From positions 1 to 64,000 of the forward strand of contig USDT01000006.1 in assembly GCA_900553465.1 (NCBI GenBank): a stretch of 64,000 nt of DNA, given 5' to 3'. Of this stretch, positions 981 through 62,067 are shown piece by piece. The notes beneath the pieces were generated by a model. The model did not search any database, had not been told where the DNA came from, and worked only from the letters and a program-made list of their open reading frames with translations. Made by a program: the position numbers and the translations under genes. Source of the stretch: an uncultured Prevotella sp. GTDB lineage: Bacteria > Bacteroidota > Bacteroidia > Bacteroidales > Bacteroidaceae. Each line of letters begins with the position of its first letter. Within the stretch, counting starts at the first letter, position 1.

Positions 981-1428
981 TGCATAAATATACAGAAATC
1001 TGAACGGTGATGAATATTTATACATCGTCAACCTCACGAGAATTGAATATTTGCGAGCAAGTGTGCATCCGGCCGCAAATTCGCGAGTTTTGAGCACTTT
1101 GCGCAACACACTGTCACACAGCAGGTTGCGCCATTACGCGAAATAATACGCTCCACATGGTGCGGCGAAAGAGCCTTTTCGGGCATGCGAAACAGGCTAT
1201 ATCATGCCATGAAACGAACCAGATCAGGGCATGAAACAGTGCATTTCGCGGTGCAATAAAGTGCATTCCGCAAAGCAAAGGAAAATCATGTACACCGCAG
1301 TCAAGACACAGCAAACGCAAAAAAGGGCTTTTCGCGATTTGAGATACAGGAAAAACGACATCGCGCATTTCTATTTTGCGAAAATTTTTTGTCAAAATTT
1401 TTTACTTTCAGAAATGCATAAATATGCA
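981..1428 (+). repeat. composite intergenic element, copy 1 (complete)
   Basis: Order of parts: ARG-box-like sites at 981-994 and 1011-1024 (30 bp apart); a block with TCGTCAACCTCACGAG and a half-site GAATATTTGCG (about 1024-1056); a CGCAAATTCGCGAG block (about 1074); a 22-bp phased array of dyads at about 1177, 1200, 1222, 1244 and 1266; AAAATTTTTTGTCAAAA (1381-1397); and a third palindromic site TGCATAAATATGCA at 1415-1428. Offsets from array start are -166 (second site), +213 (TGTC) and +238 (third site), matching the 33.9-kb copy within 2 bp. The 240 bp up to the ispF terminator shows nothing I recognise. Confidence 0.75.
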
Positions 1429-1670
1429 TTTGCAACGCATATCACAGGAAATGCAAAGCAACAAATAGGTATAGCGACGGAGCATGAAGAAAGCACATCA
1501 GGAAGCAACAGATCTTGTTACAGGTACACTTCGGAAACGCCACCCTGCTCCATCGACGCCGCTACTGACGCATCACAGACGTGCCGGAAATGTAGAAACG
1601 GAACATAGCCACGGGCTTCTCCACGAAAGACAGACAAAAGGGAAGGAAACAGAAAGAAGCGCAGGAGGCA

Positions 1671-1704
1671 TAAAAACAACAACGGCCGACCTGTGAGGTC
1701 AGCC
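1671..1704 (-). terminator. intrinsic terminator after ispF
   Basis: On the minus strand GGCTGACCT and AGGTCGGCC form a 9-bp stem with a 3-nt loop, followed by GTTGTTGTTTTTA. The ispF stop codon lies inside the stem. Confidence 0.7.
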
Positions 1705-2175
1705 GCATATAAGAACAGTGGCGTAGGCACTGATGCCTTCCTGACGCCCTGTGAAACCGAGACGCTCGGTTGTCGTGGCCTTCACCGACACATTGTCGAC
1801 ATCGGTGCCTATCACTTCGGCAAGACAACGGCACATGTCCGGTATGTGAGGATTGAGCTTAGGGCGCTCCGCACACACCGTGGCGTCGATGTTACCCACG
1901 GTGTAACCCTTTGTGGCTATGAGCTCCACGGTCTTGCGCAGCAGTATTTTGCTGTCTATGTCGAGCGTTTCGTCCGACGTATCGGGGAAGTGATAGCCTA
2001 TGTCGCGCATGTTTGCCGCACCGAGCAGAGCATCGCATATGGCATGGATGAGCACGTCGGCGTCGCTGTGACCGAGCAGTCCGAGCTCGTGGTCGAGCTT
2101 TATTCCGCCGAGCCAGAGGTCACGGCCGGGCACCAGCTTATGTACGTCGAAACCGAATCCTACACGTATTTTCAT
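1699..2175 (-). CDS. ispF: 2-C-methyl-D-erythritol 2,4-cyclodiphosphate synthase
   Basis: 158 aa, the normal full length for IspF. The enzyme converts CDP-ME 2-phosphate to the cyclic diphosphate with release of CMP in the MEP isoprenoid pathway, as a cytosolic homotrimer. Zinc ligands are visible as D10-V-H12 and H44 in the segment H36-S-D-A-D...H44. The C-terminal signature KATTTERLGFTGR is intact. It begins 53 nt after the end of porV in the same direction and is probably the last gene of a porU-porV-ispF run, with a terminator at its stop codon. Nothing unusual is seen. Confidence 0.97.
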   Translation of the reverse strand: MKIRVGFGFDVHKLVPGRDLWLGGIKLDHELGLLGHSDADVLIHAICDALLGAANMRDIGYHFPDTSDETLDIDSKILLRKTVELIATKGYTVGNIDATVCAERPKLNPHIPDMCRCLAEVIGTDVDNVSVKATTTERLGFTGRQEGISAYATVLICG

Positions 2176-2228
2176 ATTCTAATATCTTTATTTGCTGTGT
2201 TATGTGTGTTCCGTCGCCGGCAGGGCGT

Positions 2229-3404
2229 TTATCTTCTGAAGAGTTCCTTTATACCGTCCATGTCGAAACTGAGCGTGAAGCGCAGTGTCTGGTCGAGCGG
2301 ATTGCTCTTCGCGGTGGCTATGACGTAGGCCGCATCGAGCGAGAACACGCTCATCTTGAAGCCCGCACCGACTGTGAAGTATTTGCGGTTACCTTTGTTC
2401 TCCGACTCGTGATGATATCCGGCACGCAGCGCGAACTGGTCGTGATAGACATATTCGCCACCGACACTCCAATTGATTTCCTGCAACTCTTCCTTGAAAC
2501 CGCCGGGCGCATCGCCGAAGCTCTTGAATATACCGCTTATGCTGCTCACGTCGTAATAGTCTTTCTGCACACGCTCCATGTAGTCTTCGGTAGACTCGCC
2601 TTCGTTCTGCTTGGGATAGGTAGGCACAAGCAGTTTGTTGGCATCGGCCGTGATGGTGAAGCGGTTGTACTCGTCCACGGGCACCATAAGCGAGGCACCG
2701 AGTCGCATGTTGGTAGGAATGAACTCGCTGTTGTCGTCGCCACCGAACGAAATTTTGCTACCGATGTTAGATATATTCAGACCAAGACCGAGCTGACACT
2801 CACGCTGTCCGATGGTGAAATAGTCCTGATAGTAGGCGGCGAGGTCGGCTGCAAAGGCGCTTCCTGGCGACGTATCTTCGGTGTAGTCGTAGGTCAGGTC
2901 GGAGTAGATCCATCTCACTGCAGCCGCGATAGAGAACTTTTCGCTGAGCATAAGAGAGTAAGCCACGTCGAACGACATCTCGTACGGGTTGATGGTCATG
3001 CTGTTGTCTGCAGTCTCACCCATGCTGGTATATACCTCACCGAGCGAGAAATAGCGAAGCGAAGCCGACACAGCCGAGTAGTCGCCTATGCGGTAGTATC
3101 CGGCCAGATAGGCCAGATCCATGTCGCTGACAAGCTGTCGCAACCACGGAGTATAGTTGAGTGCGACACCCGCACGCGATATGGCGAACGGATATTTTGC
3201 CGGGTTCCAGTATTGCGAAACCACGTCAGGGTCGGTCGCTACACCGGCATCACCCATACCGGCAGCACGTGCGTCGGGGGCGATGGTCTGCGATGTGACT
3301 GACGTATTGACAGGGTTGAACATGTTTTCCTTGTCCTGGGCCGAAGCCGTCAGTGCAAGACCGAAAAACAGGCACGCGGCAAATATTCTTATCTTAGTGT
3401 TCAT
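2229..3404 (-). CDS. porV: type IX secretion outer-membrane protein PorV (LptO)
   Basis: 391 aa with a signal peptide ending near ALTASAQ (about residue 23) and a mature domain of the FadL-like PorV/LptO family. It starts with PDARAAGMGDAGVATDPD and the segment SQYWNPAKYPF, both typical of PorV. PorV is an outer-membrane barrel that collects CTD-bearing cargo at the translocon and passes it to the PorU sortase. It lies 64 nt downstream of porU on the same strand, the same neighbourhood as PG0026/PG0027 of Porphyromonas gingivalis. It ends with an aromatic-containing barrel strand (LRFTLSFDMDGIKELFRR). Confidence 0.93.
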   Translation of the reverse strand: MNTKIRIFAACLFFGLALTASAQDKENMFNPVNTSVTSQTIAPDARAAGMGDAGVATDPDVVSQYWNPAKYPFAISRAGVALNYTPWLRQLVSDMDLAYLAGYYRIGDYSAVSASLRYFSLGEVYTSMGETADNSMTINPYEMSFDVAYSLMLSEKFSIAAAVRWIYSDLTYDYTEDTSPGSAFAADLAAYYQDYFTIGQRECQLGLGLNISNIGSKISFGGDDNSEFIPTNMRLGASLMVPVDEYNRFTITADANKLLVPTYPKQNEGESTEDYMERVQKDYYDVSSISGIFKSFGDAPGGFKEELQEINWSVGGEYVYHDQFALRAGYHHESENKGNRKYFTVGAGFKMSVFSLDAAYVIATAKSNPLDQTLRFTLSFDMDGIKELFRR

Positions 3405-3468
3405 TCTTATGGTGTTTGTCGTTAATATAAATCTTTATAAGGCACTGAATAAAAAACGCCGATGCGCT

Positions 3469-6400
3469 CTATTTATTGCCGATGATTACAAGTTTCTTTG
3501 CTTTTGAGGTCTGCGAGCTGCCGTCAGACGACATGCGCACACGGTAGAGATATACACCTGTGCCTAGGCGCCGGCCGCCATCGATGGTCAGATCCCATTC
3601 CACAGTGTAGGCACTGCCCGTGCTCACACCGCTCTCCTCGTGTGTCCAGAGCAGCCGTCCGCTCATGTCGAACACGTCGATGCCCACATCCACTGTGCTG
3701 CCGGCACGGTCGTGACTGATGATGAATGTCGTGGAGGTGGTGGCGGGATTGTCCGAACAGCTCACACTGAAGAGCGAAGGCGAAAGTCCTTTCACCACTC
3801 TGAAACGCAGTTGAGTGCTCGACATGTTGTTGAACACGTCCCATGCGCGGAACTGCAAGGTGTGCTCGCCTTCCTCGAGTTCGGGAATGTTGTAGTATGT
3901 CGTGCCGCGTGTGTAGCTGCCGAAGTCGTAGCTGAAGTTGTCGTTCAGATTGTATGTGCGCGTCATTTCGCCGTCGATGACAAGCTGCAGGTCGTGTCCG
4001 ATGCCGTTGCCGGAGGAGTTGATGCCGTCCTTGTCCATTATTTCGGCCACGAAGTAAGGCGTACTGTTCACCTTGCCTCCGTTGACAAACGAAGGCGAAT
4101 TGAGATAGCAGAAGATGGACGGACCCACAGAGTCGTTGTCGGCCACATCACCTCCACCCACAACAAACGACTCACTGTAGCCGTTGCCTATGAGTGTGCG
4201 GTCGTTGCTTACAGCATAAAGATTGATAAGACCCGTACCGTCGGTGTAGTTGATGTCCTTAGGCACGGCGAAGGAGAACTCAAAGCGTCCGCCGGAAATG
4301 CTGTCGTTGCCGCTGAAGAGCACCTTCGGACGGTCATAATAAGTGAACGGACTGCTCGACGCCTCATCCTCGTTGCGGTTGTTCCAGCGGCATGTCACCA
4401 GCTCGCGGCTGTCGTGAACGGTGGCAGAAAGCACTCCGCTGAACGACGGAGCGTCCTTCACATAGCCGCTCACACGCATCACACTGCCCGCTCCAACGCT
4501 CACGGTGTTGCCCGTGGTTACGTCCACTCCGTTGATGGAATCCACCACAACGGTGAGTGTAGGCAGGCAAAGCGTCATGGCAGGATCGCCAAGCAGTGAG
4601 TACTGTAGGTTGTTCACCACTTCCATGTTGCCGTTTGTCTTCACACTGTTCTTTGCCAAACGCTGTGCCTCGCCGAGTGTTGTGGGTTTCCCGTCGGTCA
4701 GTGTGAGCACGTTGCGCAGGAAGTTCATGTTCATCGTCTTGTTGTGCGAGGCATATACTGTACGTGTCGTGCCGTAGAAAGCCACGGCTCCGCCTTTTGA
4801 ATTAAGCACGGCTGTCTCGCCTATTGTCGACTTCATGCCGTCGAAAGGCATGATGTCACACGATGCCGTTATCCACAAAGGAAGGTTTGTATTGGTGAAA
4901 CCTGCAAAGTCGGAGAGTCTGAGCACCGACTCATGCGATATCTGGTCGGCACGTCCGTGTCCGGCATAATCCATGATGAGCGCGCCTGCGGCCTGCTGCT
5001 GTTTTATGGCTTTCGATGCGTCGGGATATGATTTTCCTGTGGATGATGTCTCACGTTTGTAGGCATCCCACAGCACTTTCTTTATGTTGAATCCGGGATT
5101 CAGCTCCGCCACCATGTCGGCAGCGTCGTTCACATCACGCATGTGTATATCGTAGTTGCCGTCATCACCCATGAACATCATGGTGTTCTGCCATGCTCCG
5201 GCGTTCTGGTTGGTGACGTAGTTTATCACCTTATCCACCATCACCTTGGCGTCGCTCTCCGTCGTTACGGGGAATCTTCCCACCGCAACATCGAGCTTGT
5301 CGCGCAACAGCGGGTTCTCTCCCTCACCGTCGTCGAGCATACAGAAGTAGCCGTCGTCGATGTAACAGCTCACCTCGTTGAACGAGTTCTCGCTCTCAAA
5401 GCAGAGCAGATAGTCGTCGGCATTCAGATTGCGGCACTCCGGTGTGAGCATGCGGTTGTCCCACACACAGTCTCCGAAAAGCAGCAGATATTTGGGCATA
5501 TCGGCCTCGGAAGCGGCACGGTCGTAGAGCATCTTGAGATAGTTGCGGTAGGCGCTGGCGTCGGGTGTACCGCTGGAGAACTCGTTGAACAGTTCGTCGG
5601 CAGGCACTATGCGCACCCGAAGCGCGTCGCGGGTCTCGTGGAATTCTTTCAGACGCTCGGCCTCTTTCCTGAGTTTCTGCGATGTCGGGATGATTATCAC
5701 CATGTCGGCAGGCCCGTCGGCGTGCAGATCCTGGTTGGTTATGTTATATACGTACTGCGGAACGGGGAACGACGACGTCAGGTCGGGAGCGGCAAAAGGC
5801 TTGTCCCACGCCATCGACACATAGTCGAGACGTGCCGGTCCGCCCGAAAGTACAGTCAGCTTGACAGTGTTCTGTGCCTTCAGGTTCTTTACTGTGTAAG
5901 TGCCCGAAGCCTCACTGCCCTCGTCATAGGCAATGAGATTCACACTGAGAGTGCCTATAATGGAATCGTTGAATTCTATCTGTACACGGCATGCACTGCC
6001 CGCAGACACATTGACGGACAGTTTTCCGGATGTGGCCTCCAGATTGCCGGCCAACTCGACAGAGTGTGGCGACGTTGCGGTTATCTGCCGGCTGTCGAAC
6101 AGATTGCGGCCTCCCTGATACCAGGAATAGCCGTCCACTTCGTAAAGAGAATGATAATAATCGGCTGAAGGATAAAAGGATGCGAGGAAGTCTTCCTGAC
6201 TTATGCGGGCAGGAGAGCCTTCATCGTTCTGCGTGATGAAATAATAGCCGTAGTCAGAATATGGATTACGCGTGCGACGACTGCTGTTGTTGGCTTTCCA
6301 CGACACCGGACCGAGGGCATGGAAAAGCAGGCGTCCGCCGACATCACAGAGCGGAACCTCACGCAGGTCGTCGTATTCAGTAAGGTCGTCTGCCGACAAC

Positions 6401-7014
6401 TGCTCACTCCTGAGGTTGCCGCCGTAGCCATAAACCTTGACCTTGCTTATATCAGAAAAGCCGGCCTGACGTATCAGCGACTCACTGAGCTGATACACTC
6501 CGGTGGACGGCACACGTATCTTTGCCCAACGCCCTGAAGCAAGAACAGAATGAGCGGCATAGCGCGAGGCCGGATCGGAAGCGGCGCGCAATGCAGCACG
6601 ACGGGCAGAAGAGGCAGGACGGGCTTCTTTCTTCAGCATGAAGCTGACAAGAAGCTGGTAGCGTCCGTCACGGAAAACCACCGGACAGAAACTCATCTCG
6701 AGCGAAGGTTTCTTGCGGTCGAACACAATGTGACTTTCGACCTTTGGCATTTCGGGTGGAAGTTCTGAAACAAGTTTCTTGTAAGACTCGATGTCCTGTC
6801 GGGGCATATCAATAAATTCGGGATATGCAACAGACACCGTATAAATGGAGTCGGCGTAATTATCAGGCAACGGTAGAGTGGTTGCAAAATGAGGAAGCAC
6901 GGAGTCTGTCCTCACCTGATCAGCCGTCAGATTGAAGAATGTCTGTGCTCCGGCAACCGAAGGCTGCATGAGCAGGAACATCAGAAAGAGTATATTGTAA
7001 AACAGTCTGTTCAC
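3469..7014 (-). CDS. porU: type IX secretion system sortase PorU
   Basis: 1181 aa, in the size range of PorU. It has a signal peptide, a long N-terminal region, and a C25 (gingipain-like) peptidase domain at roughly residues 430-800. The catalytic pair is visible: H686 in YAGHGRAD and C719 in ITASCDIMPF. The domain is preceded by a PorU-like segment (YLLLFGDCVWDNRML). The protein ends in a CTD-like Ig fold (about 1095-1181) finishing GVYLYRVRMSSDG...KKLVIIGNK. PorU cleaves the CTD of cargo and attaches mature proteins to A-LPS on the cell surface. The chosen start is GTG (7012-7014), because it directly precedes a good signal peptide. An ATG 11 codons downstream would shorten it. Confidence 0.94.
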   Translation of the reverse strand: MNRLFYNILFLMFLLMQPSVAGAQTFFNLTADQVRTDSVLPHFATTLPLPDNYADSIYTVSVAYPEFIDMPRQDIESYKKLVSELPPEMPKVESHIVFDRKKPSLEMSFCPVVFRDGRYQLLVSFMLKKEARPASSARRAALRAASDPASRYAAHSVLASGRWAKIRVPSTGVYQLSESLIRQAGFSDISKVKVYGYGGNLRSEQLSADDLTEYDDLREVPLCDVGGRLLFHALGPVSWKANNSSRRTRNPYSDYGYYFITQNDEGSPARISQEDFLASFYPSADYYHSLYEVDGYSWYQGGRNLFDSRQITATSPHSVELAGNLEATSGKLSVNVSAGSACRVQIEFNDSIIGTLSVNLIAYDEGSEASGTYTVKNLKAQNTVKLTVLSGGPARLDYVSMAWDKPFAAPDLTSSFPVPQYVYNITNQDLHADGPADMVIIIPTSQKLRKEAERLKEFHETRDALRVRIVPADELFNEFSSGTPDASAYRNYLKMLYDRAASEADMPKYLLLFGDCVWDNRMLTPECRNLNADDYLLCFESENSFNEVSCYIDDGYFCMLDDGEGENPLLRDKLDVAVGRFPVTTESDAKVMVDKVINYVTNQNAGAWQNTMMFMGDDGNYDIHMRDVNDAADMVAELNPGFNIKKVLWDAYKRETSSTGKSYPDASKAIKQQQAAGALIMDYAGHGRADQISHESVLRLSDFAGFTNTNLPLWITASCDIMPFDGMKSTIGETAVLNSKGGAVAFYGTTRTVYASHNKTMNMNFLRNVLTLTDGKPTTLGEAQRLAKNSVKTNGNMEVVNNLQYSLLGDPAMTLCLPTLTVVVDSINGVDVTTGNTVSVGAGSVMRVSGYVKDAPSFSGVLSATVHDSRELVTCRWNNRNEDEASSSPFTYYDRPKVLFSGNDSISGGRFEFSFAVPKDINYTDGTGLINLYAVSNDRTLIGNGYSESFVVGGGDVADNDSVGPSIFCYLNSPSFVNGGKVNSTPYFVAEIMDKDGINSSGNGIGHDLQLVIDGEMTRTYNLNDNFSYDFGSYTRGTTYYNIPELEEGEHTLQFRAWDVFNNMSSTQLRFRVVKGLSPSLFSVSCSDNPATTSTTFIISHDRAGSTVDVGIDVFDMSGRLLWTHEESGVSTGSAYTVEWDLTIDGGRRLGTGVYLYRVRMSSDGSSQTSKAKKLVIIGNK

Positions 7015-7069
7015 GCTTATCTTACGTTTTAGCTTTTTCCGGCTAACCGAGCTAGGAATGTGTCGCTGT

Positions 7070-7687
7070 CTAACGACACGAGAATTCGAGCACCTTGCGG
7101 TCGTCGAGCCAGCCCTCCAACCTGTCGCCTATCGCAACAGGACCTGTTCCGGCAGGCGTTCCGGTATAAATGAGGTCGCCGGTCTTTAGTGTGAAATATC
7201 TGCTTATATAAGCTATGAGTTCGTCAACGCCATAAAGCATATCGCTCGTACAGGCTTCCTGAACGGTCGAACCGTTGATATTGAGACGGAAATTTATGGC
7301 CTGTATGTCGCGGAATTTGTTGATCTCAACCCATTCGCCTATGGCAGCCGAACCGTCAAAGCCCTTGCACAAGTCCCACGGCATGCCTTTCTCACGGAAT
7401 CTGCGCTGCATATCGCGTGCCGTGAAATCGACACCCAATGTCACCGCATCATAGTAGCGGTGGGCGAAACGCTGCGGTATTGTCTTGCCGAGACGGCATA
7501 TCCGCACCACCAGTTCGGCCTCATAGTCTATGCGTCCCATGAAGTCGGGCACGAAAAACGGCTTGCGATCCTTGAGCAATGCGGAGTCGGCCTTGGTGAA
7601 TATCACGGGTTCCTCCGGTTTATATAACGCTCCATCCAGCTCTTTATTGTGCTGGATATAGTTCATTCCTACTGCAAATATCTTCAT
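7070..7687 (-). CDS. fumarylacetoacetate hydrolase (FAH) family protein
   Basis: 205 aa, a single FAH fold. The C-C bond hydrolase/decarboxylase signatures are visible: NYIQHNKEL near the N-terminus, DYEAELVVRI (carboxylate metal ligands, about residues 54-63), VDFTARDMQRR in the middle, and GDLIYTGTPAGTGPV near the C-terminus. Family members act on oxaloacetate, acylpyruvates or related 2-oxo acids with Mg2+ or Mn2+; the exact substrate cannot be read from sequence. It lies between porU and tsf, separated from tsf by a terminator, so it may be transcribed separately or with porU (55 nt away). Confidence 0.85.
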   Translation of the reverse strand: MKIFAVGMNYIQHNKELDGALYKPEEPVIFTKADSALLKDRKPFFVPDFMGRIDYEAELVVRICRLGKTIPQRFAHRYYDAVTLGVDFTARDMQRRFREKGMPWDLCKGFDGSAAIGEWVEINKFRDIQAINFRLNINGSTVQEACTSDMLYGVDELIAYISRYFTLKTGDLIYTGTPAGTGPVAIGDRLEGWLDDRKVLEFSCR

Positions 7688-7695
7688 TGCAAATA

Positions 7696-7747
7696 ATTAA
7701 CAAAAGACGGAGTCATAAAGAGCTTTCACTCCTCATAACTCCGTCTT
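7696..7747 (-). terminator. intrinsic terminator after tsf
   Basis: AAGACGGAGT (7704-7713) and ACTCCGTCTT (7738-7747) form a 10-bp stem. On the minus strand the stem is followed by TTTTGTTAATT. It separates the ribosomal-protein operon from the FAH gene. Confidence 0.7.
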
Positions 7748-7778
7748 CTATCTTGTGATTGTATATTCAGTTATACAC

Positions 7779-8777: not shown

Positions 8778-8827
8778 AGTTTATTGTTTTCTTTTGATTT
8801 ATAAATGAATGAATGGTTTCTAATGCA

Positions 8828-9670: not shown

Positions 9671-9860
9671 TGTTGTTTTGTTTGTTTAAATTGTTTACTT
9701 TCCTTTTAGTTTTCTCGAACCAGCCCATGGGTAATCCGTTATACTTGTGTCGAAGTCTCACAGGCTTGGATACTAAACTTATGCTGCCATGACGTCAGAT
9801 ATCACGCTGCCACGCATTGCCGTACAACCGGCAGGACAGCACATCCGACATCGGATGACA

Positions 9861-10247: not shown

Positions 10248-10255
10248 CTTACTGT

Positions 10256-10717: not shown

Positions 10718-10850
10718 TGTTTAATTTAAATATTACTACTAAAAAACATTATACCTTTGCGCGAGCGATTCACTAACCGCGTGGTCCGGCCAAAGACCAA
10801 CACTATTAACACTCTCACGCTGGGGACTCTAAGTGTATCCCCGAAATAAT
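10718..10850 (-). promoter_or_regulatory. rplM 5' leader, possible autoregulatory structure
   Basis: About 130 nt between the predicted start (near 10850) and the rplM ATG. On the minus strand it contains GGGGATACACTTAGAGTCCCC (a stem-loop with a 4-bp GC stem), then TGGTC-N8-GACCA, then a CGCG/CGCG pairing. A structured leader before L13 is consistent with ribosomal-protein autoregulation, but I cannot match it to a named family. Confidence 0.4.
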
Positions 10851-10856
10851 CGGACT

Positions 10857-11393: not shown

Positions 11394-11643
11394 TTTTATG
11401 CCGCGAAACCCACCATTTCAGCGTGCGATATGAACTATTTCACCATGCGATATGGGCATTATCAGGAGGCAAAACGGGCCGTTTCGCGAAGCGCATAAAA
11501 ACAGACCGCAATACAGCTATGCGTAAACGACTGTTTTACAACGTATTACCGATTTTGTCAAAATTCACGTTTTTCGGTCCAAACAACCCGTCGGTGCGCT
11601 CCGACGCGTTTTTTCCGCATTTTTCACGACGAATATTTAACAC
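11394..11643 (+). repeat. composite intergenic element, copy 2 (array and right end)
   Basis: Five 15-bp dyads start at 11394, 11416, 11438, 11460 and 11482, at exact 22-bp intervals (for example TTTCACCATGCGATA at 11438). A TTTTGTCAAAATT block is present at 11553, earlier than in other copies. A degenerate ARG-like site, CGAATATTTAACAC, starts at 11630, +236 from array start as in the complete copies. The left arm is not recognisable. It lies upstream of the rplM promoter and downstream of the 3' end of hipT. Confidence 0.65.
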
Positions 11644-18031: not shown

Positions 18032-18133
18032 TATGCCTGCCGCATCATACGCACACACATATTCCATCGCTCGGCTCCATCCTTTCCGCCTTTATCAACG
18101 CACGCCCCACAATGCCCGTTCCGCCGCCATAAA

Positions 18134-18562
18134 TGAATAAATATACACACCCGAAAGTAAAAAATTTTGACAAATATTTTTCACAAAAGAGAAGTTAACA
18201 AATCTTAAATCCGAAAATTATGAGGCGTTTTTGATGCACCTGCGGAACACTTGTGAAGAGATCGCTGTGCGATACAGGCCGTTTTAAGGTCTGATTACGA
18301 CCATTTCAGGGCATGAAATGCACTGTATCATGGCATGATAGAGGCTTAATCGCAGTCCGATATAGACTTTATTGCGAGACAGCGGAAGGCATACGGAGAC
18401 ACTGATCCGCATAATCTGCATGATTATCAGCGCATTGCGCAAACCTCTCAAAACTCGCGTATTTGCGTCCAAACGTGCTGTCGCTCGCAAATATTCAATT
18501 CTCACGAAGTTGAGGTCCGTCGGTTCCGCATAATTATACATTCACAACCGTATATTTATGCA
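18134..18562 (-). repeat. composite intergenic element, copy 3 (inverted)
   Basis: The element is in reverse orientation. Parts: ARG-like TGAATAAATATACA (18134-18147); AAAATTTTGACAAA (18162-18175); five dyads starting at 18282, 18304, 18326, 18348 and 18370, exactly 22 bp apart (for example TATCATGGCATGATA at 18326); CGCGTATTTGCG (18456-18467); CTCGCAAATATTC then CTCACGAAGTTGA; and ARG-like sites near 18527-18540 and 18549-18562. Measured from the reversed array start (18384), TGTC is at +212 and the outer site at +237, the same as in the forward copies. It lies between two convergent genes. Confidence 0.75.
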
Positions 18563-33733: not shown

Positions 33734-34179
33734 TGAATATTTATGCAAAACCCCGAGGCTGATGAATATTTATGCAACGTCAACTTCACGAGAATCTAAT
33801 ATTTGCGGGCAACAGCTCCTTCGGTCGCGTACAGCCAATTCTCAGAGACTTTACGTAACTCTTTATCAATCAGAGCTATACGTCTTTTCGTCATTCAATT
33901 AAGATTTTCCGGCTGTGCGAAAGAGTCTGTTTCGGCACTCAATAGAGCCCGTATCAGGGCCTGATATCGCATATATCGGCATGCAAATAGAACTGTTTCA
34001 TAAGCTGATAAAGCCTTTATTGCAAACCGACGTTCAAAAATAGGGATCGCAGACCAGAATTTCCCGACCCATGAAAATGCGGAAGAGCCTTTCCGGTTCG
34101 CGTATTAACATTTATTCACTTCTATTTTACGAAAAATTTTTGTCAAAAAAAAGTCAAGCCGGAATTGTATATTTATGCA
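33734..34179 (+). repeat. composite intergenic element, copy 4 (complete)
   Basis: ARG-like TGAATATTTATGCA occurs twice, at 33734-33747 and 33763-33776 (29 bp apart). It is followed by CGTCAACTTCACGAG, a half-site TAATATTTGCGGGC and a CGCG block at 33826. Five dyads start at 33930, 33952, 33974, 33996 and 34018, exactly 22 bp apart (for example TATCAGGGCCTGATA at 33952). Then GAAAAATTTTTGTCAAAA (TGTC at 34141, +211) and a third site TGTATATTTATGCA at 34166 (+236). This is the clearest copy. Confidence 0.8.
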
Positions 34180-41140: not shown

Positions 41141-41214
41141 AACATGAACGTCGCGACACCACAATCATTCCGATGTGTATCAAGACTACCCATGTCGCAC
41201 TGCAAAAAAGGCTC

Positions 41215-41339
41215 TATCGCATCTCAATAAAGGCTTTATCAGAGGCTGATATGGGCTTTATCGCACCCTGAAAAAGCCTGTATCGCACCCTCAAAGAGGC
41301 TTTATCATAACGTCGGAAAGGCTTTGTCGCAACACGACA
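41215..41339 (+). repeat. 22-bp phased dyad array, core only (copy 5)
   Basis: Six units start at 41215, 41237, 41259, 41281, 41303 and 41325, exactly 22 bp apart. The linker is unusually uniform (AGGCTT or GGGCTT) and the core TATCGCACCCTGAAA appears at 41259. The flanking arms of the other copies are missing because genes lie too close on both sides, though TCGTCAACACAATTC at 41354 recalls the left-arm block. This shows the array can exist without the arms. Confidence 0.8.
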
Positions 41340-41386
41340 ACAATTCTGATACATCGTCAACACAATTCTGAAGCAACATCAAAAAG

Positions 41387-49865: not shown

Positions 49866-50220
49866 ATAAGCGAGAATTTGCGGACTGAGTCGTCCTCGGG
49901 CGCAAATACGCGAATTATGAGAGGTTTACATAAGTCGTTGGATAGCAATAGCTTATATTTAAGAGATATTTTATCGTCTTGCAAAAAGCACCATTTCAGC
50001 ACGCGATTAAGCCCATATCAGGGGCTGAAATGCACCAGATCAGGGCCTGATACAGACTCAATCGGACCATGAAACGGGCATTATCAGAAACTGAAGTGAA
50101 TTCTTCCGGACTGCATTACCGGATATATGGCAGTGCGGTAAATGCTGAAACGGACTATATAGCAGCTGATTTAACATTCCTTTACACCTCTTTCGCGAAA
50201 AAATTTTGTCAAAAAAAAGT
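49866..50220 (+). repeat. composite intergenic element, copy 6
   Basis: Left-arm blocks CGAGAATTTGCGGAC (about 49871) and CGCAAATACGCGAATTATGAG (shown as CGCAAATACGCGAATT, 49901). Five dyads start at 49994, 50016, 50038, 50060 and 50082, exactly 22 bp apart (for example GATCAGGGCCTGATA at 50038). Then GAAAAAATTTTGTCAAAAA with TGTC at 50207 (+213), and AAGTCAAG. The outer ARG-like sites are decayed. The region lies between divergent trpS and the flippase gene. The following 50221-50581 shows nothing I recognise. Confidence 0.75.
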
Positions 50221-52117: not shown

Positions 52118-52122
52118 ACAAC

Positions 52123-53085: not shown

Positions 53086-53199
53086 GGTTCGGGGCACGCC
53101 GTGTGGCGACAACACTGTCCACGGCAGACATTATTGTTTCGTATTACCTTCGCAGTCACCACTTTTTCAGCATGGCGGGGCGTAAACTCGAAGTTTTTG

Positions 53200-53290
53200 T
53201 CTATATTTGCATAATATAATCTGCACTCGGAAAATTAAGAACAAGTTCTTTTTCCACTCGTTGGATATATATTTGCATAATACAATAATT
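53200..53290 (+). repeat. 66-bp modules upstream of the AT-rich gene
   Basis: TATATTTGCATAA occurs at 53202 and 53268, exactly 66 bp apart. Between them are CTGCACTCGG and AGAACAAGTTCT (palindrome AGAAC-AA-GTTCT), the same layout as the 57.3-kb modules. Both TATATTTGC copies fit the -7 consensus; the second is 21 bp before the start codon of the next gene. Confidence 0.7.
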
Positions 53291-53296
53291 ACGACT

Positions 53297-53974: not shown

Positions 53975-54056
53975 TTCTTCGCAAAAAAGACATGGTTATA
54001 ACTGATAATCAAACCGTATCTTCAATATATTCATACATAATGATAAAGACAACATA

Positions 54057-55433: not shown

Positions 55434-55459
55434 CAAACGGAAAAGACACATAAGCCACA

Positions 55460-56266
55460 ATGAAAAATACTTTTCTCGAGGAATACAAACGCAGAACACT
55501 GAGACAATGTCAGCTGAAACAGCTCGGCATACTGGAAGAAATAGACCGAATATGCCGCAAGCACGACATATCTTACTGGCTCGACGGCGGCTCACTGCTT
55601 GGTGCAGTGCGCCACGGAGGATTCATTCCGTGGGACGACGACATTGACATTGCCATGAGCCTTGCCGACCTTGAACGGTTCAAAAGCGTCGCTCCGAAGG
55701 AGTTGCCTGCCTCTCTGACGTTGCAGACACCGCAGAGCGAGGACACGAAAGAGCCAATAGTGAAGGTGCGCGACCTCAATTCGTTCTTCGTGGAACCGGG
55801 CGACGACTTCAGCGCCAACTACGAGAAAGGACTCTATGTGGACATTTTCCCATTCATAGACTATCCGGACGTTTCAAAGAAATTTGTGAAACGATACGGC
55901 CGCGGCATATCAAAGTGCTACTCCATACTGCACAGTCCGCACAGATATTCGCTGCGCTCGGCGGCAGAACTGCCGTGGTTCGGCATGCAATACGCGCTTT
56001 ACAGCCTTGCGTGGAAGCTGGCTTTCATGTTCAGAAAGAAGGGAACGTATATGTCGAACACGCTCGTGAACAACGGCTACGGCATCATGCACCTGAAGGA
56101 AAGCATCTTTCCGCTCGGCACGATAACATTCGAAGGCCGCACATTCAGCGCGCCGTGCAATCCCGACGCTTACCTGTGCGACCTCTATAACAACTACATG
56201 CAGATACCGCCGAAAGAAAAACAGAAGATTCACTCGGTCTTTATCATGCCTGAACTGATAAAATAA
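55460..56266 (+). CDS. LicD-family phosphotransferase
   Basis: 268 aa. The nucleotidyltransferase-fold signature is W40-L-D42-G-G-S45-L-L-G-A-V-R followed by W58-D-D60-D-I-D63, the LicD/fukutin pattern. Family enzymes transfer phosphocholine or, in fukutin-like cases, ribitol phosphate from CDP-activated donors onto glycans. With the CDP-ribitol synthase-like gene just upstream, ribitol-phosphate transfer is the best inference. Its last 23 nt overlap the 3' end of the convergent fucosyltransferase-like gene. Confidence 0.88.
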   Translation: MKNTFLEEYKRRTLRQCQLKQLGILEEIDRICRKHDISYWLDGGSLLGAVRHGGFIPWDDDIDIAMSLADLERFKSVAPKELPASLTLQTPQSEDTKEPIVKVRDLNSFFVEPGDDFSANYEKGLYVDIFPFIDYPDVSKKFVKRYGRGISKCYSILHSPHRYSLRSAAELPWFGMQYALYSLAWKLAFMFRKKGTYMSNTLVNNGYGIMHLKESIFPLGTITFEGRTFSAPCNPDAYLCDLYNNYMQIPPKEKQKIHSVFIMPELIK

Positions 56267-57083
56267 CGAGCTCGTTGCCACCTATGGTCGAGGCCATGGT
56301 TGAGAAACTGCTGCCTGCCGAACCATAGATGCGGCGTGTGAGCGAAAGCGTCCACATATCGACAAGTCCGCCGCGTATGCCGGACGTATTGCCGCGTTCG
56401 GCGGCGTCGGAAGGTGTGATGATGCGGTCGCCGAAGACTCCACGCATCTGCTGTTTCACCTCTTCGCTGTCGGTAGCGAGGAATATGCGCAGGTCTGGAT
56501 GTTCTTTCAGCTCTCGCTGTCCTGCCTCGATGAACAATGCGGTAGGGCTTTTCTCTATCGACTCGGCGTTGTCTGTACGACGTATGTGCATACCTATCGT
56601 GTAATCGGAAAAACCTTCACGGAACGTCTCAACGCGCTCCATAACCTCGTCAACGGGGCGGAATATCTTCTTATAAAGTATGGTTTCCCACGTACCGAAC
56701 TCCTGATAACAGCTCATGTAGCACCGTTTGCCGCGCAGCCATGCCTCAAAATCAAAGTTTTTCTGCTTCAAAGGAGTGACAAACTGCTCGTATATGCGGT
56801 CGTCGAAAACAACGCTCTGAAACGCCTTTGGTATCCAGAAGTTGCGCCGGCGCGGCCTGTCATTGACGAGAAAATCCAGTCCGCGTGCCTCACGCAGGGC
56901 AAAGAGAGAACTGTCAACGGGTTTGAAGATGTCGCGGAACGGAGCATTCAACGCCCAGTCGCGAAACCAAACGACCTGCATTCTGCCGTCAACAGCACGG
57001 CACAAATTATATGCCGACACAACGGCACGCATTCTATTGGCCAGTCCTCCGGCCGGTACCAACATCAAACTGGTTTTGTTCAT
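56244..57083 (-). CDS. fucosyltransferase-like protein (NodZ/GT-B type)
   Basis: 279 aa from the ATG at 57083; the track of in-frame codons upstream (to 57191) is non-homologous in character. Features are the N-terminal VPAGGLANRMRAVVSAYNL and the C-terminal donor-site motif MHIRRTDN (about residue 187), as in alpha-1,6-fucosyltransferase/NodZ-like enzymes. It also has IFLATDSEEVKQQM and GGLVDMWTLS. Likely transfers fucose from GDP-Fuc to a surface glycan. Convergent with licD, with 23-bp 3' overlap. Confidence 0.72.
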   Translation of the reverse strand: MNKTSLMLVPAGGLANRMRAVVSAYNLCRAVDGRMQVVWFRDWALNAPFRDIFKPVDSSLFALREARGLDFLVNDRPRRRNFWIPKAFQSVVFDDRIYEQFVTPLKQKNFDFEAWLRGKRCYMSCYQEFGTWETILYKKIFRPVDEVMERVETFREGFSDYTIGMHIRRTDNAESIEKSPTALFIEAGQRELKEHPDLRIFLATDSEEVKQQMRGVFGDRIITPSDAAERGNTSGIRGGLVDMWTLSLTRRIYGSAGSSFSTMASTIGGNELVILSVQA

Positions 57084-57249
57084 AACGGTGACTTGAGTTA
57101 AACCGGAAGGCGGAACGCGTCTTATCGCAAGCCTTCCGCAACTCTCCGAATGATTGATTATGAATGCAAAGATATGCAAAATAGCCCTCAATCGGAGATT
57201 ATGCGGCCGATTATTTTGAAATGAATAAAACTTTTAGAGCAATAATAAT

Positions 57250-57410
57250 TATCTTTGCATAAGATATACTGCACTCTGGAAACTGAGAACAAGTTCTCTT
57301 TCCGCTCATTTGCACAATCTTTGCATAAGATATACTGCACTCGGGAAACTGAGAACAAGTTCTCTTTCCGCTCGTTTGCACAATCTTTGCATAAGATATG
57401 CTGCACCAGG
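57250..57410 (+). repeat. 66-bp tandem modules upstream of the methyltransferase
   Basis: TTTGCATAAGATAT recurs at 57254, 57320 and 57386, exactly 66 bp apart. Each full unit contains CTGCACTC, the palindrome GAGAAC-AA-GTTCTC, TTTCCGCTC and CAATCTTTGCATAA. The first two units are nearly identical. The rest of the 57084-57565 gap shows no gene. A frame reading through it on the minus strand is repeat translation. Confidence 0.8.
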
Positions 57411-57565
57411 AAGAAACAAAGCAAACTATATTTCCACATGCAGCAAATGTCTCTGCACATTATATTACTGCACCGGCACTACCGGCAGAAGCCGCCCTGC
57501 GACACACCATACAGACGCAGACACGGGGCGACGGGCCGGATCCTGACTTTCGTTTGACAAGAAGA

Positions 57566-58465
57566 ATGAACAAAGAACAGAACATTACTACAAAATGGAT
57601 GAACGGCATCGCCTACGAGGTGGCCTTCTGGAACAACGTGTACAGATGGAAATGGACCTTCAACGGCATGATGAACTGGTCGAAACACGGTGGCGTTATA
57701 ACGCTTGAAGGATTCGACGCCAACGCCTTCCTCGCCAAAACGGACAAGCCGAAGGTGCTCGACGTGGGATGCGGAATGAGCTACGCGACGGGCAACCACA
57801 TCATGCGCGACGGACAGTTGACACCGCTCGACATTCATTACGTTGACCCGTTGGCCGGCTACTTCAACAGAATACTGGCGCGTCACCGCCGCAAACTGCC
57901 GAGAATAGAATTCGGAATGGCCGAATATCTGTCGGCGTTCTATCCGGCACACGATGTATCGCTCGTGATAATACAGAACGCACTCGACCACTCCGCCCAC
58001 CCCATGAAAAGCATATACGAAAGCATCGACGTGCTGAAAAAAGGCGGATGCCTCTATCTCAACCACCACATAAACGAGGCGGAAACCGAACACTACAAAG
58101 GATTCCACCAGTATAACATATGCCGCGAGAACGGAAAACTGATAATATGGAACAAGAACGAGCGTCACGACGTGGCTGAGCTGACAGCCGGATTTGCCGA
58201 GCTGACCGTGGGACTGACCGAAAACGGACACGTGGCGGCTGTGATAAGGAAGACCGGAGACGTGCCGCAGAGCCTCATAGACGATAAGGGTGACAAGCGC
58301 GCACTGTGCTCAATACTCATGGACTATGCCCGCACTGCCGGAAGTCCGTGGTACGGAGTGAAAAAGAGTGCGGCCTACTGGAAATACAACATACTGCAGT
58401 TCTTCATACAGGGACTGCCCTGGACACTGAAGATGAAACTGAAAAAACTCATCAAACAGGCCTGA
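57566..58465 (+). CDS. class I SAM-dependent methyltransferase
   Basis: 299 aa from the ATG at 57566. Rossmann methyltransferase core: motif I VLDVGCGMSYATGNHIM (about residues 66-82), then an acidic strand end YVDP and motif IV SLVIIQNALDHSAHP. The C-terminal region is long and basic (KMKLKKLIKQA). In a surface-polysaccharide cluster it probably methylates a sugar or a glycan chain end. The next glycosyltransferase starts 8 nt downstream. Confidence 0.82.
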   Translation: MNKEQNITTKWMNGIAYEVAFWNNVYRWKWTFNGMMNWSKHGGVITLEGFDANAFLAKTDKPKVLDVGCGMSYATGNHIMRDGQLTPLDIHYVDPLAGYFNRILARHRRKLPRIEFGMAEYLSAFYPAHDVSLVIIQNALDHSAHPMKSIYESIDVLKKGGCLYLNHHINEAETEHYKGFHQYNICRENGKLIIWNKNERHDVAELTAGFAELTVGLTENGHVAAVIRKTGDVPQSLIDDKGDKRALCSILMDYARTAGSPWYGVKKSAAYWKYNILQFFIQGLPWTLKMKLKKLIKQA

Positions 58466-58473
58466 ACCGCAGA

Positions 58474-59400
58474 ATGATAAGCATCATAATACCCGTTTAC
58501 AAGACGGCGGCGACGCTCGACAGATGCGTGGAAAGCATAGCCGCACAGGAGGACGCCGACTTCGAGATAATACTCGTCGACGACGGTTCGCCGGACGATT
58601 GTCCTGCGATGTGCGACAGATGGGCCGAAAAAGACAAGCGCACGAGGGTGATACACAAGCCTAACGGCGGACTGAGCAGCGCACGCAACGCAGGCATTGA
58701 GGCGTCGAGGGGCGACCTGCTGATGTTCATTGATTCCGACGACTACATAGCCCTCGGCACGCTGCACGACCTGAACGGTCTGGCCGAAAAGCATCCCGAA
58801 TATGACATTATAGAGTTTCCCATCAGCCGCGAGAGAGCAGACGGCACTGAGGAAACGCTGACCTTCGGAAACTGCGAATACCGCGACATGGACGAATACT
58901 GGCTCTCGTGCCGTGCCTATACCCACGCTTACGCCTGCAACAAGATATACCGACGCAGGATGTTCGACGAAGTGAGATATCCCGAAAAGATGATTTTCGA
59001 AGACCTGCACACCCTGCCCATGCTTCTGGAGAAAGCCGGTGTGACGGCCACAACGTGCACGGGAACTTACTATTACTGCTGGAACAGTGGAGGAATATCC
59101 AACAACGCCGACGGCAACGCCTGGCGACAGCTGCTCGCTACGCACCTGAGGATGCTGGAAAAGACGCGCCGCCACACGCCAGAATGGGTCGACTACTACA
59201 TGCATGTGCTCAACATCCAGATATACACCACTGAACTCACGGGCGACCGTCCGCTGCTGACAACCATCAGACAGAACTTCATGAGCGTAGATAAGAGTTT
59301 CCGCCTGAAAGCCATTCTGCTCGACATAATGGGCGTGAACGCCCTCTGCCGTGCCAACAGACTGCTGCGCATCATGTCCGGACGCGGCCGTCGGAAGTAA
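58474..59400 (+). CDS. glycosyltransferase family 2
   Basis: 308 aa from the ATG at 58474. GT-A fold signatures: ISIIIPVYKTAATLDRCVESI at the start (here as IIIPVYKTAATLDRCV), VDDGSPDDCPAMCD, GGLSSARNAGIEASRGDL and the DxD-type FIDSDDYI (about residues 84-91). A typical WcaA/EpsJ-like enzyme for exopolysaccharide assembly. Co-transcribed with the methyltransferase 8 nt upstream. The substrate sugar is not deducible. Confidence 0.88.
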   Translation: MISIIIPVYKTAATLDRCVESIAAQEDADFEIILVDDGSPDDCPAMCDRWAEKDKRTRVIHKPNGGLSSARNAGIEASRGDLLMFIDSDDYIALGTLHDLNGLAEKHPEYDIIEFPISRERADGTEETLTFGNCEYRDMDEYWLSCRAYTHAYACNKIYRRRMFDEVRYPEKMIFEDLHTLPMLLEKAGVTATTCTGTYYYCWNSGGISNNADGNAWRQLLATHLRMLEKTRRHTPEWVDYYMHVLNIQIYTTELTGDRPLLTTIRQNFMSVDKSFRLKAILLDIMGVNALCRANRLLRIMSGRGRRK

Positions 59401-59447
59401 AAATTATTACACTACGGCCGCACAGTGTAATATTGTGTAACGAATCG

Positions 59448-59481
59448 TTTGGTTCGTTTTGTTTTTTCATCCTATATTTGC
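59448..59481 (+). promoter_or_regulatory. promoter of the TonB-domain/TPR operon
   Basis: TTTG (59448-59451), 21-bp spacer, TATATTTGC (59473-59481). Predicted start about 59488, leader about 44 nt. Confidence 0.7.
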
Positions 59482-59531
59482 AGCGTCCGGACAAACGACT
59501 AACATGTCTAACGCAAAAAACCAAATGTATT

Positions 59532-59930
59532 ATGAAAAGAATCCTTATGATGGCGCTTGCCGCGATGATAATGGTATCGACGGCGGCTGCACAGACCACA
59601 AAAGAGAATAAAGAAAAAGTGTATGAAAAGTGCGAGGTGCTGCCGGAATATCCGGGCGGCATTCAGGCCATGATGAAGTTTATTGGCGAAAACCAGAAAT
59701 ATCCGGCGGAAGCAGTAAAGCGCGGCGAACAGGGACGGGTGGTTGTGAGCTTCGTAGTTGAGAAAGACGGTTCGCTGACCGACATAGAGGTGACCAAGCA
59801 TGCCACTCCTACGCTCGACGCAGCAGCCGTGGAGACAGTAAAGAAAATGCCGAAGTGGAAACCCGGAACCCATAAAGGAAAGAAAGTCAGAGTGCAATTC
59901 GCCCTTCCTATCAGTTATAAAATAAACTAA
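59532..59930 (+). CDS. TonB C-terminal-domain protein with signal peptide
   Basis: 132 aa from the ATG at 59532. Signal peptide (about 1-20, ending STAAAQ), then one TonB C-terminal domain (about 38-132) with YPGGIQAMMKFIGENQKYP, GRVVVSFVVEKDGS and VKKMPKWKPGTHKGK. It lacks the usual membrane anchor plus proline-rich linker, so it is a free or cleaved periplasmic TonB-like domain. It ends 2 nt before the TPR regulator gene, so the two are translationally linked. Confidence 0.85.
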   Translation: MKRILMMALAAMIMVSTAAAQTTKENKEKVYEKCEVLPEYPGGIQAMMKFIGENQKYPAEAVKRGEQGRVVVSFVVEKDGSLTDIEVTKHATPTLDAAAVETVKKMPKWKPGTHKGKKVRVQFALPISYKIN

Positions 59931-59932
59931 GA

Positions 59933-61636
59933 ATGAACCGCACCGGCACTATACTGATTATTCTCGTCACGGCCATACTCATGACAGCATGCGGACAAAG
60001 GGAGACGTACGACAGCACAATCGCGCGCACCGAGAGCATGACCGACACCGATCCGCACGGCGCACTGATGCTGCTCCACGGCCACAAGGACAGTCTGTGC
60101 GCCGGCCCGGCAGACAGCGCGCTCTACGAACTGGTCTATACCGAATCAGTGCACGACCTCGGGGTGAAGCTGACCAACAGCGAATATATAATCAGCAGTG
60201 TGGCATGGTTCGACCGATGCGGCGACAAACGCCGCAGGGCAAGAGCGCTGGTGCAGCTCGCACTGTGCCTCCACGACAACAGACAGCTGCACGACGCAGT
60301 GCTCAACCTGAAGATAGCGGAGGAAGCGGCAGCCGGTACAGACGACAGTTTTCTCAACTTCAGGCTGGCCGCAGCATTGGCGCAGATGAACATTATGACG
60401 GGACATCACGACCTGATTATGAAATACCGCCGCATGGAACTCGACGCAGCGCAACGCACCGGAAGCACAGACCACGTGGCACGGGCATGGAACGACATGG
60501 CGACGGAGTATCTGCGGATAAACCGCACCGACAGTTTCATGGCGTGCATGAACCGTTGCCGGCCGTTACTTCCTAAGGCAGGACCGGAGGTGCAGTCGCT
60601 CATACGCACCAATCTGGGCTGTTACTACATGAACCGCGGCGACACCGCGCGTGCACTCCGGCTGCTGACGATGGCTTATGTGGGATGTCCCGACCGCATG
60701 GCATCGCTCCGTCTGGGTGACATATACGCCGCTGAAAACGACATGCAGAGGGCCGAGAGCATGTGGTACGACGCTGCCGACTCCGACGTGCCGGCCATAA
60801 GCAAGAGCGCACTGAAGAAACTCATAACCCTCGCACGCACAAGAGGCGACGGGAAGTCGCAACTGTTTCTGAGCGAAAGGCTCAACAACGTGTACGACCA
60901 CGACGTATCCACCGAAACGGCAAGCTCGCTCGTAGAACTGCAGAAAAACTATGACAGCCGGCGAAGCGAACGCCTCTCGCATGCAAGGATGATGCGGCTG
61001 GGTGGTGCGACGGCCATGCTGATAATAGTAATGGTGGGATTCATGGCGTATCACCGGCGCAGAATGAGCCACTACGGACGTGTGATAAACAAGCAGAAAA
61101 TGACGCTCAAGGAACTGAACGCCGGCTACACGCGCGACCTTGAGAGCTACCGCACCCTGCGCCGGAGGCTCGACGAGCTGCAGCAGGCAAGGGAGAAGGA
61201 CGTCAGACTGATTGAGGAGAAGACACGCGAGATGGAGAAGATGCAGGCGCAGCTGGCCGAATACCAGAACGACCGGCGCAATCCGGAGCAGTGGAACATG
61301 GAAGACCGGCTGATAAACGCCGACTGTGTGTATGCCCTGCACCGCCTGGCTTCAGTAGGACGGACGGCCGAAAAACAGGACTGGGACGCACTCCACCAAC
61401 TGACAAACAGCTACGACGGCAGACTGAACGCGCTGTTCGCCGGGCACACCAACCTCTCGCCCAACGAGATAAACGTCACGATACTGACGCGCCTGCGGTT
61501 CATACCGACGGAGATTGCGGTGCTTACAGGCATGTCGTCGCAGTCGGTCACCAACATGAGGGCACGCCTGCTGCAGAAGATATTCGGCATGAAAGGCGGC
61601 GCAAAGGAGTTCGACGACCGTATAAGAAACCTCTGA
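59933..61636 (+). CDS. membrane-spanning TPR protein with C-terminal HTH
   Basis: 567 aa. An N-terminal lipobox-like LMTAC (Cys20) follows a hydrophobic stretch. Then come helical TPR-like repeats (about 40-340), one membrane segment (about 357-377, MLIIVMVGFMAYHRRR), a coiled coil (about 385-450, RLDELQQAREKDVRLIEEKT) and a C-terminal LuxR-like/sigma-region-4-like HTH (about 509-560, LSPNEINVTILTRLRFIPTE then SSQSVTNMRARLLQKIF). This matches a common Bacteroidetes layout: extracytoplasmic TPR sensor, single helix, cytoplasmic DNA-binding tail. Immediately downstream of the TonB-domain gene (2-nt gap). Its regulon is unknown. Confidence 0.8.
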   Translation: MNRTGTILIILVTAILMTACGQRETYDSTIARTESMTDTDPHGALMLLHGHKDSLCAGPADSALYELVYTESVHDLGVKLTNSEYIISSVAWFDRCGDKRRRARALVQLALCLHDNRQLHDAVLNLKIAEEAAAGTDDSFLNFRLAAALAQMNIMTGHHDLIMKYRRMELDAAQRTGSTDHVARAWNDMATEYLRINRTDSFMACMNRCRPLLPKAGPEVQSLIRTNLGCYYMNRGDTARALRLLTMAYVGCPDRMASLRLGDIYAAENDMQRAESMWYDAADSDVPAISKSALKKLITLARTRGDGKSQLFLSERLNNVYDHDVSTETASSLVELQKNYDSRRSERLSHARMMRLGGATAMLIIVMVGFMAYHRRRMSHYGRVINKQKMTLKELNAGYTRDLESYRTLRRRLDELQQAREKDVRLIEEKTREMEKMQAQLAEYQNDRRNPEQWNMEDRLINADCVYALHRLASVGRTAEKQDWDALHQLTNSYDGRLNALFAGHTNLSPNEINVTILTRLRFIPTEIAVLTGMSSQSVTNMRARLLQKIFGMKGGAKEFDDRIRNL

Positions 61637-61745
61637 CCGACAGGCACAGAACGCGGCAACGACCACGCAAGGAGCGCTCTACTGTATGAAAAGACTCACG
61701 GACAATAATAGTCTAAAGGGAATATTTCAGACAGAAAAGCAAAAG

Positions 61746-62067
61746 CGTATATTTATGCAAAGACACTTCTGCAATCGTATAAATATGCAATCACGATGTC
61801 GAAAAAACTCCGTCAGAATCTTCGGACGACCGATCGGACGCAAATTTCCGACTTCCTGAATTTTCATTTAAATCTCTGATATACAGCCGCTTGCGCACAA
61901 CAGCACTGCGACAGCGACTTATCTCTCTTGCGAAAGAGTCCGTTTTAAGGTGCAAAAGAGCCCGTTTCACACGCTAAAACAGGCTATATCACACCCTGAA
62001 ACGGGCTTAATCGCACCCTTAAACAGTCTTTATCGTAAGCCGAAAAGCACTCTTTCGCAAATCACAA
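61746..62067 (+). repeat. composite intergenic element, copy 7 (left arm and array)
   Basis: ARG-like CGTATATTTATGCA at 61746 and CGTATAAATATGCA at 61776 (30 bp apart), then a CGCAAAT block at 61839 (104 bp before the array, as in copy 4). Six dyads start at 61943, 61965, 61987, 62009, 62031 and 62053, exactly 22 bp apart (for example TATCACACCCTGAAA at 61987). The TGTCAAAA block expected near 62155 is missing. It lies between convergent genes. Confidence 0.78.

Follow-up and report, generated by a model that had tools for sequence, protein, structure and literature searches.

BrickBuilt, a MITE/minisatellite of Porphyromonas gingivalis, is built on a 23-nt unit with 0–11% mismatches within an element and, in the sections of the source available to us, is given as 19 copies in ATCC 33277 (PMC4596501); repetitive extragenic palindromes (REPs) are described, in an excerpt of a second source, as 20–40 bp long and mostly tagged with GTAG or CGTC (PMC3733652). 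In a 64,000-nucleotide stretch of DNA from an uncultured Prevotella sp. (contig USDT01000006.1, positions 1–64,000; hereafter the window), which represents ordinary chromosomal DNA from a Prevotella-like bacterium and encodes ribosomal protein S2, EF-Ts, TyrRS and the type IX secretion protein PorV, we found seven arrays of five to seven degenerate units repeating with a 22-bp step. The arrays lie on average 10.1 kb apart (range 6.9–15.7), six of them in gaps between called genes and array 1 to the left of the first called gene. The window unit reads TWTCR, five bases, YGAWA and then a 7-base linker near NRGSCYN, and comprises two dyad centres 11 bp apart, one in the 5-bp spacer and one in the 7-bp linker; because both dyads repeat at 22-bp steps, dyad centres alternate every 11 bp along an array. 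The near-identical 23-nt unit of BrickBuilt is absent from these arrays, which do share its intergenic position and flanking modules. We found no account of a grid of such arrays in the open subset of PubMed Central (PMC), outside which subscription literature lies, and the accessible portions of PMC5771137 and PMC3878776 describe no such arrays. We put at roughly one half the probability that a putative sequence-specific protein docks at these arrays on the native chromosome.

With the consensus proposed in an earlier, sequence-only reading of the window, the best four-unit windows scored 36–38 out of 40 at period 22, against 29 or fewer at periods 19–21, 23–25 and 33 and 35 at the harmonic, 44. 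A position weight matrix (PWM) for the unit gave seven peaks of 58–76 bits and no other above 14, compared with a maximum of 6.9 bits in 40 Markov resamplings and a best value of 12.9 bits at other periods from 18 to 26. All seven arrays were recovered at the positions given in that reading; the first, which it had excepted from the exact 22-bp spacing, proved by PWM to be in phase as well, starting at 1178 rather than 1177. Because the PWM was trained on the seven window arrays themselves, tests that dispense with it weigh more. A self-match (lag) test, which requires no motif, returned 32 windows with z>6 at lag 22 across 80 rpsB loci of Bacteroidales-type genomes (1.38 Mb), compared with 0, 8, 9, 1, 3, 13, 3, 1, 4 and 2 at lags 19, 20, 23, 25, 26, 28, 29, 31, 32 and 34, lags divisible by three being inflated at these loci, as coding sequence would lead one to expect. 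We also sampled three related genomes, G146 (540 kb), G235 (400 kb) and G064 (340 kb). Applied to G064, the lag test picked out 23 windows at lag 22, of which one is a GC-rich minisatellite; nine other lags gave no window. Steps between unit maxima were exactly 22 bp in 178 of 185 cases in G146, 56 of 56 in G235 and 99 of 106 in G064. Spacing thus holds at 22 bp while the unit sequence drifts, and neither of the outcomes that the sequence-only reading had named as signs of chance, absence of the spacing from other genomes or equally good arrays in shuffled sequence, was observed.

Within one genus group of 299 genomes, a profile of the seven window arrays matched at least 64 (E≤0.001; 14 candidates scored per genome). 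The three sampled genomes were chosen for strong matches to it, and their array density is therefore not typical. Requiring at least four units for detection, and using for G064 a matrix seeded with 14 of its 23 lag windows (the minisatellite and others excluded), we counted 42 arrays in G146, 19 in G235 and 30 in G064, present throughout the sampled stretches; extrapolated to whole genomes, these densities imply roughly 300 each for G146 and G064. Not one lay inside a called gene (genes being called with our own codon-usage caller), none was found in these stretches at neighbouring periods, and there was not a single match with an intermediate score of 12–24 bits. Arrays comprised exactly four units in 18 of 19 cases in G235, and from four to ten, mostly five, in G146. 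Co-directional, convergent and divergent gaps held 24, 10 and 8 arrays in G146 (60, 15 and 24 long gaps overall), 8, 8 and 3 in G235 (30, 13 and 15) and 21, 6 and 3 in G064 (38, 9 and 9), so that divergent gaps appear somewhat under-used by raw count. Since arrays occur in all three kinds of gap alike, the idea that they act as a regulatory relay finds no support. Single units outside arrays were not enriched in G064, were enriched 2- to 4-fold in G146 at 10–14 bits and, in G235, were not enriched below 14 bits and occurred at 10.3 versus 2.5 per Mb above that score. Upstream of rplM, lag-22 windows were found at 9 of 88 loci (z>5.5, the window included; two less clear), with differing unit sequences, while control lags not divisible by three gave 0–2 windows and lag 21 gave 8. 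Among 20 genomes spread across the phylum (rpsB 49–69% identical, 20 kb each), there was one AT-rich lag-22 window and no excess over other lags.

Arrays also keep their distance from one another. Gaps in G146 averaged 12.5 kb with a minimum of 5.1 kb and a coefficient of variation (CV) of 0.465, whereas random intergenic placement gave CVs of 0.84–0.91 and none of 4000 permutations was as low. Gaps shorter than 5 kb numbered none in G146 against 11–13 expected (0 of 4000 permutations as low), one in G064 against 7–9 (P≤5e-4) and none in the 400 kb of G235 against 2–3 (P 0.01–0.07). On a 2.66-Mb contig of G235, for which 150 of 686 candidates were scored, giving at least 98 sites (the pool includes seven positions from direct scans, and sites less than 600 bp apart were merged), the minimum gap among the sites listed was 5.95 kb; uniform placement would yield 16.3 pairs closer than 5 kb, and never fewer than six in 5000 draws. 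Within the 340 kb of G064 a single pair is less than 5 kb apart, at 192.3 and 195.6 kb on C1; the second of these arrays lacks the right-hand module and its units are atypical in sequence, and no obvious regulator stood out among the adjoining genes, judged from their first residues with no family search made.

We looked into three long voids in G064, the longest in G146 and one in G235. Two of the G064 voids, at 0–33 and 117–160 kb on C1, each contain a Mu-like prophage (portal, MuB, rve and S24 in the first), and the third, at 70–97 kb, contains an island with integrase, VapE and type I restriction genes that follows dnaK. In G146, 16 kb of the 34-kb void is an insertion with respect to the window and carries integrase, relaxase and a restriction gene. 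Arrays are absent from these four mobile segments, within which 6, 10 and 10 proteins were scanned for the first and the other two G064 voids and 4 for the G146 insertion. Subtracting one prophage (~32 kb) in G064 and one insertion (16 kb) in G146, sizes that were judged by eye, and retaining the 26.9-kb G064 gap with the island, lowered the CVs to 0.45 and 0.40, respectively; that of the window is 0.30. Both G064 prophages (L306, L312, L313) carry an rve transposase, DUF3164 and an S24 repressor; the Mu portal and the MuB C-terminal domain were matched in the first only.

The sequence of the unit varies by genome, each of the three sampled genomes having its own main dialect, and looks alike from array to array at rpsB loci that contain two or three. 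The dialects are TWTCR in the window, TTCCG in G146, CGTTTYG in G235 and GTAATTTGA in G064. G146 is the closest of the relatives compared (rpsB DNA 89% identical, best of 20 genomes; GC content 52.1% versus 52.2% in the window), and yet the half-site carries T at its third position in 96% of window units, whereas 67% of the units in nine G146 arrays (62% in all 42) have C there. Window arrays scored 58–76 bits with their own matrix versus 57 or less with that of G146, and G146 arrays 67–88 bits with their own versus 15–50 with that of the window. Position is nevertheless inherited for several copies: six window arrays correspond to five array-bearing gaps in G146, the arrays at 1178, 11394, 33930 and 61943 each having an array in the matching gap and those at 18282 and 49994 both mapping to a single G146 array at an inversion junction. 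The array at 41215 has no counterpart in G146, where the gap is much shorter. The window segment from about 18.6 to 49.4 kb is inverted in G146 C16, with the 18.3- and 50.0-kb arrays at the rearranged junctions, and a different dispersed hairpin repeat, GAGACGCAAAATCTTGCGTCTC, stands between genes near arrays of this contig (for example, array 54378).

As placed by PWM, array 1 has five units (1178–1287, plus strand), array 2 five units upstream of rplM (11394–11503, plus), array 3 five units (18260–18369, minus), array 4 six (33908–34039, plus), array 5 seven (41193–41346, plus), array 6 six (49972–50103, plus) and array 7 six (61943–62074, plus); the flanks of arrays 4 and 7 rank first of 42 against G146. 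Flanking parts return at similar offsets in several copies. Composite element 1 (981–1428, plus) has ARG-like palindromes at 981–994, 1011–1024 and 1415–1428, CACGAGA at 1035–1041 and TGTCAAAA at 1390–1397; composite element 4 (33734–34179, plus) has ARG-like sites at 33734–33747, 33763–33776 and 34166–34179 and TGTCAAAA at 34141–34148, and shares the CACGAGA part. Around array 3 the composite is inverted (about 18133–18562, minus), with ARG-like sites, inverted TGTCAAAA (as TTTTGACA at 18165–18172) and a variant CACGAGA part. The other four arrays have fewer of these parts or none: TGTCAAAA alone accompanies arrays 2 and 6 (downstream of the latter), ARG-like sites alone accompany array 7, and array 5 lacks all three motifs. 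In G064, 20 of 30 copies, picked for their right-hand module (which the other ten lack), remain in register between about −130 and +265 relative to the array, at 0.3–0.9 bits per position versus about 0.1–0.2 outside, and part of this composite resembles, by eye, the window left module reversed. The B. faecis array sits in a dispersed element of at least about 500 bp together with a second 22-bp array, so that two array families can share one genome. This second family is ATCARNTATTAAYANNTGACAC-like and shares its dispersed element with the first (L086, L092, L095, L096 and L097, from B. faecis; L128–L130). Some lineages at least have therefore seen copies spread at an earlier time.

Other features of the window are few. 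An L13-Bacteroidia ribosomal leader (RF03127; 10767–10842, minus) lies upstream of rplM and some 0.5 kb away from array 2, and was the only Rfam match; no tRNA was found. PorV adjoins a 1181-residue C25 peptidase, presumably PorU-like, in a group of type IX secretion genes at 2229–7014.

We favour the reading of these loci as maintained docking arrays because the phase is exact over degenerate units, each genome has its dialect, arrays keep their distance, half-decayed copies are missing, and called genes and the examined mobile segments are free of them. A probably dimeric DNA-binding protein, presumably one per genome, would occupy four to six (sometimes more) dyads cooperatively, the bound dyads following one another every two turns along the same face of the helix. 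Such platforms, placed between genes at intervals of about 10 kb along the native chromosome, would reach over several kilobases, and because each acted over that range a second one within about 5 kb would be redundant or excluded. Their job would be chromosome-wide, either organizing the chromosome or marking resident DNA, and dialects would arise as the reader changes its specificity from one species to the next and its sites adapt in turn. Of the possibilities raised in the sequence-only reading, helically phased binding of a protein at a chromosome-organizing site fits best, favoured by phase, by presence all along the sampled stretches and by exclusion from called genes. More tentatively, and as an idea that may well prove wrong, hundreds of evenly spaced arrays could form an address grid that marks the resident chromosome and is missing from newly arrived DNA, with a fast-evolving reader giving each species its dialect. 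Rapidly evolving pairs of reader and site are familiar from PRDM9 and centromere proteins, which serve here as an analogy; chromosome-organizing sites of bacteria are normally conserved and fewer. If docking is correct, coevolution of site and reader would become measurable in bacteria, with sequence shifting while the 22-bp geometry, the spacing and several positions stay; in Bacteroidales of the gut and rumen the arrays would help to tell native from acquired DNA, and they would point to a new DNA-binding protein.

Two candidate readers were examined. Of 36 genomes searched for ParB, 33 gave a match; most carry it once, and no paralog is confined to array-rich genomes. The ParB recognition stretch, GKSRTAITNYLRLL, is identical in G146 and G064 despite their strongly different dialects, differs by a few residues in G235 and by more in B. 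faecis, and differs also in G026 and G029. Lrp/AsnC octamer sites are 15-bp dyads whose 5-5-5 geometry is similar to that of the array unit. Two Lrp/AsnC paralogs were found in 9 of 12 genomes and three or four in the rest (one G273 paralog being left unread), and the helix-turn-helix segments of the two common paralogs are near-identical in G146, G235 and G064. Because the recognition helices are near-identical across dialects, neither family appears to fit; as judged from these protein comparisons, ParB/Noc, which also has no array-linked paralog, and Lrp/AsnC are both unlikely readers.

Several observations weigh against docking. The search among ParB and Lrp/AsnC candidates yielded no binding protein. 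Presence is patchy, since 48 of 80 rpsB loci (7–21 kb) have no lag-22 window above z 5, and in B. faecis, which has two array families, the scoring of 150 out of 1034 candidates listed 31 sites in 6 Mb. Overall regularity is significant only in G146: the CV of G235 is 0.78, which is not low (P 0.28–0.48), and that of G064, before prophage subtraction, is 0.71, which is weakly low (P 0.04–0.23). G146 has four gaps of 20–24 kb besides the void examined, the content of the G235 void is mixed, a transposase and a restriction subunit occurring there next to the housekeeping gene metG, and one B. finegoldii array directly adjoins conjugative transposon genes. Matching arrays of the window and G146 are no more alike than non-matching pairs, and must therefore turn over much faster than neighbouring genes, which in-place replacement and site adaptation may explain alike; flanks rank first or second of 42 in only four of six window copies, and 26th and 27th otherwise. 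Dialect uniformity could also come from the spread of one ancestral array per lineage, and copies in G235 and B. faecis are visibly related.

The last points lead to the main rival, mobility, which the sequence-only reading had also named and which we regard as possible while inclining away from it. The arrays would here belong to non-autonomous mobile elements of about 130–700 bp, with the 22-bp units as transposase sites, target immunity setting the distance and selection purging insertions in genes. Three B. faecis copies are 87–93% identical over about 500 bp (other pairs 73–83%), G235 copies have end modules and unit-specific spacers in common, the 20 selected G064 copies are in register over about 400 bp, and arrays are at least 3–6 kb apart and outside called genes. 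Set against this are the missing half-decayed copies, with no scores of 12–24 bits in three genomes, and positions that are partly inherited while the arrays fit their own genome's dialect better; nor was an autonomous copy or partner gene noticed, in work that included no search aimed at these. A search for Mu-transpos_C (PF09299) gave matches in no genome, control genomes being equally without a match. The window composite was unmatched in plasmid and phage collections. Among 72,556 plasmid records the B. faecis element matched 5, each from B. finegoldii; of the two that were read, one held chromosomal-type genes and the other part of a conjugative transposon beside a polysaccharide locus. 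The element also matched 4 of 50,697 phage records, all unannotated, and a 17-base B. faecis string matched 14 viral contigs, of which nine were scanned and gave no lag-22 window above z 6.

Other explanations are less probable still. An uptake or self-recognition signal for transformation or DNA repair, similar to DNA uptake sequences (DUS) or Chi and spread by biased uptake with species dialects, is suggested by the dialects of the arrays, their dispersal along the chromosome and their absence from mobile DNA, all reminiscent of uptake sequences (PMC7371117); single units are, however, mostly not enriched outside arrays, and no array lies in a called gene, which makes this improbable. More improbable again are functionless minisatellites produced by ordinary slippage: one G146 array does hold a tandem duplication of a two-unit block, yet every dense genome has a single period, with little drift to 21 or 23 bp despite degenerate units, and slippage accounts poorly for one dialect per genome and for distance keeping. 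We give as little credence to a dispersed family of non-coding RNA genes, in favour of which stands the G064 composite, at about 400 bp with spacing kept in 20 of 30 copies; its right-hand module showed no conserved pairs in 20 copies, in a test of little power whose shuffled controls equally gave nothing, and Rfam offers only the L13 leader in the window. The arrays are not CRISPR loci, as the repeats are degenerate and lack spacers and no cas family occurs among the 30 window proteins scanned, and they differ from the FopS/RbpB small RNAs of Bacteroides as far as the available part of that literature describes them.

Among known systems, BrickBuilt is alike in having intergenic tandem units that are flanked by leader and tail modules and scattered within a single Bacteroidales species, and differs in that the available sections describe no 22-bp dyad array, dialects or grid for it (PMC4596501). 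REPs and the bacterial interspersed mosaic elements (BIMEs) built on them are likewise extragenic palindromes in many copies (PMC3733652). On inspection, the unit consensuses of the window, G146, G235 and G064 have no GTAG or CGTC tag and stand in phased arrays, and we reject this identification. DNA uptake sequences, in the excerpts available, share species dialects, high copy number and a distribution that reveals mobile DNA (PMC7371117, PMC7811141). They are, however, short single words, whereas here the array is the unit. The ends of Tn7 and Mu contain several transposase binding sites of about 22 bp and thus resemble the arrays in their repeated sites, as target immunity resembles their distance keeping; they differ in that no transposase or autonomous copy was noticed with the arrays, for which no aimed search was made. 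Noc and SlmA provide a further parallel, with palindromic protein sites scattered over the bacterial chromosome. Their sites are single, their reader proteins are established, and we know of no concerted change of these sites between close species; the arrays described here are, by contrast, phased at 22 bp.

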